Assembly (NCBI RefSeq): GCF_004349055.1
Contig: NZ_SMKX01000034.1
Coordinates: 1 to 64,000 of the forward strand
Source: Kribbella antibiotica
GTDB lineage: Bacteria; Actinomycetota; Actinomycetes; Propionibacteriales; Kribbellaceae
DNA: 64,000 bases
Direction of reading: 5' to 3'
The notes under the pieces were generated by a model. The model did not search any database and was not told where the DNA came from. It saw only the letters and a list, made by a program, of their open reading frames with translations. Shown piece after piece: positions 3,619-33,761 of the stretch. The translations under genes were made by a program, and so were the position numbers. The number at the start of each line of letters is the position of its first letter. The stretch's first letter is position 1.

Positions 3619-3656
3619 CGGTCGAGGCATGCCCGGTTGCGGTCATGCCTCGACCG
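3619..3656. terminator. Bidirectional terminator hairpin
   Basis: CGGTCGAGGCATG and CATGCCTCGACCG form a perfect 13-bp stem around a 12-nt loop. It sits between two convergent stop codons (3609 and 3663) and has no strong T-tract, as is usual in actinomycetes. Confidence 0.75.
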
Positions 3657-24372: not shown

Positions 24373-24378
24373 TCACTA

Positions 24379-24542
24379 GGTCGTCTCTGGTGATTCCGCG
24401 CCGTAGCGAGCAAGTGCTCGGTGCGGTGCATCGGTGCGCTGGAGGGGAGGCCTCGATGCTTTTCCATCGTGGCCTTTCCTCCAGTGCGGCGAGGTGCCGT
24501 GCCGAGTGCTGCGCAGTAGGCGGGGAATCGCCAGAGACGACC
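24379..24542 (+). ncRNA. Candidate 164-nt long-hairpin RNA
   Basis: The left end GGTCGTCTCTGGTGATTCC pairs with GGAATCGCCAGAGACGACC at the right end, and pairing continues inward through CTGGAGG/CCTCCAG and GGCC/GGCC to the loop between CGATG and CATCG. About nine to eleven of the imperfections are G-U pairs if the plus strand is the RNA, against about one C-A and a few transversions plus one small internal loop. That asymmetry suggests selection on a plus-strand RNA. It begins 6 bp after the terminator of the lipoprotein gene and ends 8 bp before the stop of the convergent nuclease-like gene. No promoter was clearly identified. Confidence 0.5.
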
Positions 24543-24550
24543 CTCCCCAG

Positions 24551-25045
24551 CTACTGGTGGCGGACCATTTGCTGGAGGAGGGCTTCGACGGCGCCGTGCA
24601 GGTCGGCGTCGTGGTGCGGACCCGACCAGACGACGACACATCCCTTGTCGCCGAGCTTCTCCGCGACGAGCGCGCGAGCAGGCGTCGGATCGCCCTGATT
24701 CAGTACGACGATCAGTCGCCGGCCGTCCCGCTGGAGCCGATCGAGCAGCGGCGGCAGCGTCGAACCGCGGAAGAGCCCGGGATCGCTCTTCACCTTGGTC
24801 TCGACCATCACCCCGCGCCCGCGCACCACGAGCAAAAAGTCGGCCCGATCCCGGGTGAACTCACGATCGTGGTAGATCCGCGACTTCGGCCAGAGCCGCT
24901 GCAACGCGGCGTCCACCTCCACGTCGTACCGCTCGGCTAGTCTGCTCACCCGCGAGCTCGTCCCGCGCGGCCGGAAGCTCTCCGGTCGATCCCGCGGGCG
25001 ACCCAGCAGTGGCGACAGCAGTCGCCTCAGTCTCGTGTCGATCAT
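24551..25045 (-). CDS. Small PD-(D/E)XK-nuclease-like protein
   Basis: 164 aa. RADFLLVVRGRGVMVETKVK has the spacing of a restriction-endonuclease-like core (D ... hydrophobic strand ... ExK), followed by RRLIVVLNQGDPTPARALVA, a helix-strand typical of the fold. The N-terminus is basic (RLRRLLSPLLGRPRDRPESF). The catalytic assignment D in RADF and E-T-K is inference. ATG 25045 follows GAGGGG. A long hairpin RNA lies immediately beyond its 3' end. It could be a NERD-like or phage-defence nuclease. Confidence 0.6.
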   Translation of the reverse strand: MIDTRLRRLLSPLLGRPRDRPESFRPRGTSSRVSRLAERYDVEVDAALQRLWPKSRIYHDREFTRDRADFLLVVRGRGVMVETKVKSDPGLFRGSTLPPLLDRLQRDGRRLIVVLNQGDPTPARALVAEKLGDKGCVVVWSGPHHDADLHGAVEALLQQMVRHQ

Positions 25046-25068
25046 CGGCGGACCCCTCACCTAGCTCG

Positions 25069-33723: not shown

Positions 33724-33761
33724 CTCGGGCCCAGCCGGACTCGCATTCGGCTGGGCCCGAG
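33724..33761 (+). terminator. Strong terminator hairpin
   Basis: CTCGGGCCCAGCCG and CGGCTGGGCCCGAG are a perfect 14-bp inverted repeat with a 10-nt loop, 18 bp after the stop of the gene at 33394. Confidence 0.8.

Follow-up and report, generated by a model that had tools for sequence, protein, structure and literature searches.

One question is raised by positions 24379-24542 of the window (the whole stretch of 64,000 nucleotides of Kribbella antibiotica DNA analysed here): why does a long, nearly complete hairpin carry imperfections that are mostly G-U pairs, and on one strand only? A preliminary description, made from the sequence alone, had read the structure as a selected double-stranded RNA hairpin and as something other than a mere MITE. 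The sections below follow this question from the fold of the single copy to its relatives, its orientation in the chromosome and its probable mode of movement.

Anatomy of the hairpin

Positions 24379-24542 form one hairpin of 164 nt, as previously described, and folding confirms its boundaries to the base (Table 1). Folded as RNA, the plus strand reaches -136.4 kcal/mol (z -13.9, with 0 of 200 shuffles as good) against -107.6 kcal/mol for the minus strand, and folding as DNA gives -71.5 versus -55.3 kcal/mol. Read in structural register, this copy has 70 opposed positions, made up of 55 Watson-Crick pairs, 11 G-T, 0 A-C, 2 G-G, 1 A-G and 1 T-T, while free self-alignment returns 11 G-T and 1 A-C, in agreement with the roughly nine G-U cases and roughly one C-A case first counted. 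Two features had escaped that first reading, namely that most of the G-U pairs are held in tandem wobbles of opposed 5'-GUGC/5'-GUGC motifs, and that the hairpin is a dispersed repeat.

Table 1. Coordinates of the hairpin element and its parts in the window
Feature	Position	Strand	Basis and remarks
Whole hairpin element, family 1	24379..24542	+	Plus strand is the G-U strand; folding, dispersed copies, absence from the orthologous site in G015
Outer stem, 5' arm	24379..24402	+	Double-sided change in 22/24 pairs; terminal ~10 bp similar to IS5-family TIR (GGGCGTGTCT)
Outer stem, 3' arm	24519..24542	+	Complement of 24379-24402
Internal loop, 5' side (GTAGCGAGCA)	24403..24412	+	Near-invariant in alignment A1
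Internal loop, 3' side	24511..24518	+	Near-invariant in alignment A1
Core stem, 5' side	24413..24458	+	GTGC motifs 24414-24417, 24421-24424, 24426-24429; fixed T-G/G-T columns across copies
Core stem, 3' side	24465..24510	+	GTGC motifs 24484-24487, 24494-24497, 24499-24502, 24506-24509; fixed T-G/G-T columns across copies
Terminal loop	24459..24464	+	Folding, copy alignment
Insertion-site remnant CTA, 5' side	24376..24378	+	Flank statistics; unoccupied G015 site ends ...TTCACTA

Among copies the core is near-invariant, its opposed GTGC/GTGC motifs giving tandem G-U wobbles, and the asymmetric internal loop is conserved with it. The 24-bp outer stem diverges strongly from copy to copy, most of all in its inner part, with pairing always kept; even within a single genome (G012) outer stems differ despite near-identical cores. 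Two short hairpins elsewhere in the window (33724-33761 and 3619-3656) apparently bear no relation to the element.

Dispersal and host range

Positions 24379-24542 hold one member of a repeat family that is dispersed and confined to the soil bacterium Kribbella, not a single-locus RNA. The K. antibiotica genome (9.28 Mb) holds at least 23 strong copies of the full-length type, together with a related short-core group that has only the centre in common with them. Family 1, to which this copy belongs, occurs in 37 of the 58 relatives searched, essentially in the genus Kribbella only: copies are present in nearly all Kribbella genomes searched and essentially in none of the other Propionibacteriales, and no copy of the hairpin family was found in genome G008. 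Exact core matches among about 85,000 GTDB species number 86, all in Kribbella; these loci were picked with a pattern matching the 3' core exactly, which inflates the conservation measured in them; this selection does not apply to the copies from the own genome or those found by BLAST. Searches of phages, plasmids and viral contigs returned no match, and a phage or plasmid origin is rejected on this result; a literature search on Kribbella palindromes yielded nothing relevant.

At the orthologous site in the closest relative (G015), the same two neighbouring genes are present and the hairpin is absent, the site reading ...TTCACTA/CCTTCCAACTACTGG... (stroke at the junction). A second insertion site (L013) is likewise empty in G015, with ambiguous breakpoints. 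Since the two flanking genes stand together without the hairpin in this relative, the gene neighbourhood looks incidental; near an orthologue of the window's upstream gene in another genome (L160, G025), the same hairpin occurs as an apparently independent insertion.

Several related forms were encountered. A second, related family has a different core (GGTGTCCAGGTGCGTGCATCG), and a third (L102:5255; GGATCCGTGGATCCTGCCAGCCGCGAGCAGG...) combines traits of the first two. In Kribbella G003 the element also occurs as tandem dimers, joined head to tail and repeating every 163-174 bp or so (L208:615-957 and L209:617-835). Centre-deleted derivatives of about 95-130 nt (L194, L202, L374, L384, L395, L401, L403, L064, L079, L141, L076 and L094) seem to have lost their centres through deletion between short direct repeats (GTGCGG...) within the arms. 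Other long palindromes, with GGGGTTAACCCC and GGGTTGCC motifs (L306:16245 and L291:7465, G023), are probably a separate repeat family that lacks strand asymmetry.

Pairing covariation and one-strand mismatch bias

Conservation of the fold was assessed in an alignment of 73 copies and 66 pairs, in which 97.9% of cells are paired and 33 of the 66 pairs, including almost the whole outer stem (Table 1), show double-sided change. Cells with double change number 498 against 114 +/- 13 in shuffled controls that ignore the kinship of the copies. By self-alignment, G-U exceeds A-C in all 105 collected copies. On the G-U strand of family 1, G-T outnumbers A-C by 1096 to 7, G-G outnumbers C-C by 185 to 2 and A-G outnumbers C-T by 129 to 3, and family 2 gives 440 G-T against 17 A-C; many of the family-1 mismatch cells sit in fixed ancestral columns, and G-U cells in the fixed core columns are inherited and non-independent. 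Only mismatches that contain a G are common on this strand, save one fixed T-T column, which supplies nearly all of the 104 in a T-T to A-A ratio of 104:3; the corresponding second ratio is 62:0.

A more independent test compares orthologous insertions in two species. Across 12 such pairs, some of them perhaps two separate insertions into one site and not true orthologues, 55 double changes lead from one Watson-Crick pair to another and 39 single steps link Watson-Crick with G-U pairing, against 0 A-C steps (p ~ 4e-12). As the preliminary description had argued, the imperfections are not neutral drift, and folding is conserved on the G-U strand only, G-U being tolerated and A-C not. The pattern is the single-strand-fold covariation expected of a structured RNA family; single-stranded DNA would give an identical signal.

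Orientation relative to replication

Beside the variable but paired outer stem with its one-sided mismatches, a second unusual feature is the placement of the copies on the chromosome. In nine complete single-contig genomes, with dnaA marking oriC and ter placed diametrically opposite, replication of the leading strand uses the G-U strand as template in 92 of 94 family-1 copies (p ~ 5e-25) and in 48 of 48 family-2 copies (p ~ 7e-15), so that 140 of 142 obey one fork polarity: the G-U strand is the minus strand in the right replichore and the plus strand in the left, and the lagging-strand template is its complement, the weaker folder. Consistent with this choice of origin, the GC skew of the leading strand lies slightly above zero overall (+0.016) and is positive in 16 of the 20 segments examined in G012. 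With a TA skew of +0.012 as well, the leading-strand sense is slightly G- and T-rich, which is the wrong sign for mutation skew as the source of the mismatch bias.

The two wrong-way copies (L268 and L269) are full length, have common flanks and appear to be one inherited insertion retained by two species. In G016, the recent, identical copies of family 2 already follow the polarity, as do all centre-deleted derivatives that could be placed on replichores, none being found the wrong way round. In 1.6 Mb of oriented sequence, 1,022 further hairpins show no such asymmetry (A-C 114 versus G-T 126 on the lagging template; C-C 73 versus G-G 77), which argues against a general NucS or stability filter acting on all hairpins.

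Ends, insertion site and candidate mobilisers

The flank consensus of the family is YTA/G...C/TAR (strokes at the element borders), and the recent family-2 copies in G016 carry CTAG at both borders. The outermost 9-13 bp or so and the CTAG/YTAR site correspond to the termini of IS5-family insertion sequences (DUF4096 + DDE_Tnp_1), which makes a non-autonomous, MITE-like element with IS5-type ends the best classification. Exact 13-nt TAG-initial inverted repeats spaced 0.5-3.5 kb apart occur as a single case in the 2.66 Mb of sequence examined, an IS5-family element of a related genus (L177) with ends CTAGGGCGTGTCCTGCGGATCTT. Ends of the same type are found in L178 and in L179, the latter from Kribbella; a Kribbella IS5-type element has ends CTAGAGCGTGTCTGACAA, and these, like CTAGGGCGTGTCCTGCGGATCTT, resemble the outer arms of the hairpin (TAGGGCGTGTCT...). 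These three insertion sequences (L177:853-1787, L178:1343-2383 and L179:680-1601; ends CTAG(G/A)GCGTGT...) are candidate relatives of a mobiliser.

The expectation that the hairpin would prove to be more than a MITE is not supported, in view of its dispersal, its absence from the orthologous G015 site and its IS5-type ends, even with no clear target duplication. The search for dispersed copies, earlier proposed as a check, turned up many copies; target duplication across family-1 flanks is on average not clear, with 24 matches of 2 nt against 23.2 expected and 6 of 3 nt against 3.3. IS5-type DUF4096 genes are rare in Kribbella, with 2 in the K. antibiotica genome and none in most genomes. When type-A ends were searched in the K. 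antibiotica genome, they were found only in hairpin copies and an autonomous partner was not found; on the same result, the idea that solo outer arms formed a palindrome family already in place is rejected. A Y1 HUH transposase (PF01797) is absent from all 30 genomes searched, with positive controls working, which rules out a Y1/RAYT or IS200/IS605 mobiliser.

Gene neighbourhood and the question of a transcript

Gene context was derived with a home-made codon-score gene finder. Stop codons adjoin many copies, and where the flanking genes are co-directional, the G-U strand is antisense to them in 37 cases and sense in 15, a bias that is probably secondary to, and weaker than, the fork polarity. 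Convergent gene pairs surround 16 of 92 copies, without enrichment; with the orientation opposite to that required, a role as read-through terminator or 3'-UTR is rejected. Beside the hairpin, the ORF at 24551-25060 (-), initially labelled PD-(D/E)XK-like, is conserved across Kribbella but has no Pfam match at E <= 0.05. At a relaxed threshold, Rfam gave no bacterial family and only sub-threshold matches to miRNA-like hairpins and VA RNA.

Proposed explanation and its rivals

The explanation favoured here, with a probability of about 0.5, is that an IS5-type MITE is kept, and probably inserted, via a single-strand hairpin coupled to the replication fork, its orientation being fixed at insertion. 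An IS5-type transposase would act in trans on the element ends to move it, and selection would act on the single G-U strand in its hairpin form while transposition proceeds coupled to replication. Insertion would be the main step that imposes polarity, because the rule is already followed by young identical copies and by centre-deleted derivatives and because one wrong-way, full-length copy has been stably inherited; poorer tolerance of a strong hairpin on the lagging template may contribute. More tentatively, the element may be a transposable hairpin that is mobile in folded, single-stranded form at the fork, with strand-fixed polarity and IS5-type ends and without an HUH (Y1) transposase. 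Against the fork-coupled reading stand the failure to find a candidate autonomous partner in the own genome, the rarity of DUF4096 genes in Kribbella, the lack of clear target duplication and the absence of IS200/IS605-type transposases (PF01797), the known route through single-stranded DNA; the strand that IS608/ISDra2 transposes, the lagging template (PMC5371812), also counts against it, being the reverse of the G-U strand here. An ordinary double-strand DDE reaction offers no obvious means of fixing orientation, because IS5-type ends are symmetric.

The main rival, which is rather unlikely, is that an ordinary IS5-type MITE inserted in both orientations and that copies with the G-U strand as lagging template were later deleted or selected out, their hairpins being cleaved or slipped over. 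The stronger folding of the G-U strand as DNA, the breakage of hairpins on lagging templates by E. coli SbcCD (PMC4245961) and the occurrence of centre deletions between short direct repeats all speak for such removal. However, recent identical copies already follow the polarity, a search for wrong-way centre-deleted derivatives found none, the full-length L268 and L269 apparently represent one insertion that survived in two species, and the maintained pairing of the outer arms is left unexplained. Improbable, in turn, is a functional long RNA hairpin transcribed from the plus strand, with mobility and polarity secondary, even though covariation with one-strand G-U tolerance is classic RNA behaviour and many copies adjoin stop codons. 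RNA function alone does not predict the fork polarity, the G-U strand is mostly antisense to its neighbours, convergent gene pairs are not enriched, Rfam offers only weak miRNA-like matches, and the copies are not tied to conserved loci; the double-stranded RNA first proposed is accordingly disfavoured.

Somewhat less probable still is fork-coupled surveillance by NucS/EndoMS, which would remove G-T, G-G and T-T from lagging-template hairpins and leave A-C, C-C and A-A, which on the opposite strand appear as G-U, G-G and T-T. NucS is present in 10 of 10 genomes tested, the mismatches repaired in vivo by the M. smegmatis enzyme are exactly G-G, G-T and T-T (PMC11551767), the observed polarity carries the predicted sign, and the T-T excess over A-A fits, although nearly all of the 104 come from one fixed column. 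Yet the other hairpins are symmetric, the A-G versus C-T asymmetry (129:3 and 153:16) is not predicted, and most of the G-U columns are fixed and date from the ancestor. Hardly credible, finally, is a neutral inverted repeat shaped by replication-strand mutation bias: uniform orientation would indeed make any such bias act one way, but the G- and T-richness of the leading-strand sense works in the wrong direction, the 39:0 preponderance of G-U over A-C steps is far too strong, and double changes maintain the pairing.

Significance and comparison with known systems

Small hairpin repeats are common in bacteria and are usually taken as symmetric, strand-neutral debris. Two related Kribbella families with almost perfect replication polarity, in which folding of one strand only is conserved, offer a natural system for asking whether single-strand structure at the fork drives DDE-type mobility or whether replication filters palindromes by strand. 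They also carry a caution, in that one-strand G-U covariation, usually taken to prove RNA function, can arise in replication-oriented mobile DNA.

Among known repeats, ERIC/IRU (RU-1, 127 bp) and RU-2 (168 bp) are small intergenic mobile sequences and resemble the Kribbella element in size, mobility and hairpin formation (PMC2759123, PMC2229807); they differ from it in sequence and host, and literature searches found no description of replication-locked orientation or one-strand G-U covariation for them. REP/REPIN sequences with TnpA-REP (RAYT) and IS200/IS605 elements are likewise palindromic, hairpin-based and dispersed, but the Kribbella hairpin is far longer and the Y1 transposase is absent from the Kribbella genomes searched. 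In integron attC sites, selection acts on the folded single strand, and the structure is conserved while the stem sequence varies; unlike them, the Kribbella hairpin is not a recombination site between genes, and no cassette array or integrase was seen. In Yersinia, RU-2 is known as YPAL.

Orientation that follows replication has published precedents in IS200/IS605 elements (PMC5371812, PMC6006769), including IS608/ISDra2, and in Tn7-TnsE (PMC5371812). Neither IS608/ISDra2 nor Tn7-TnsE has the anatomy of the Kribbella hairpin, and the transposed strand of IS608/ISDra2 is the lagging template (PMC5371812), so that the strand polarity of IS608 is opposite to that of the Kribbella element, whose G-U strand is the leading-strand template. 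Among the closest parallels are the MITEs and insertion sequences of the IS5 family, with which the element has in common a CTAG/YTAR-type site, terminal GGGCGTGTC-like inverted repeats and small, non-coding, dispersed copies; it differs from them in being one whole hairpin with a conserved asymmetric core, in its strand-polar pairing and in its near-complete orientation with the replication fork.
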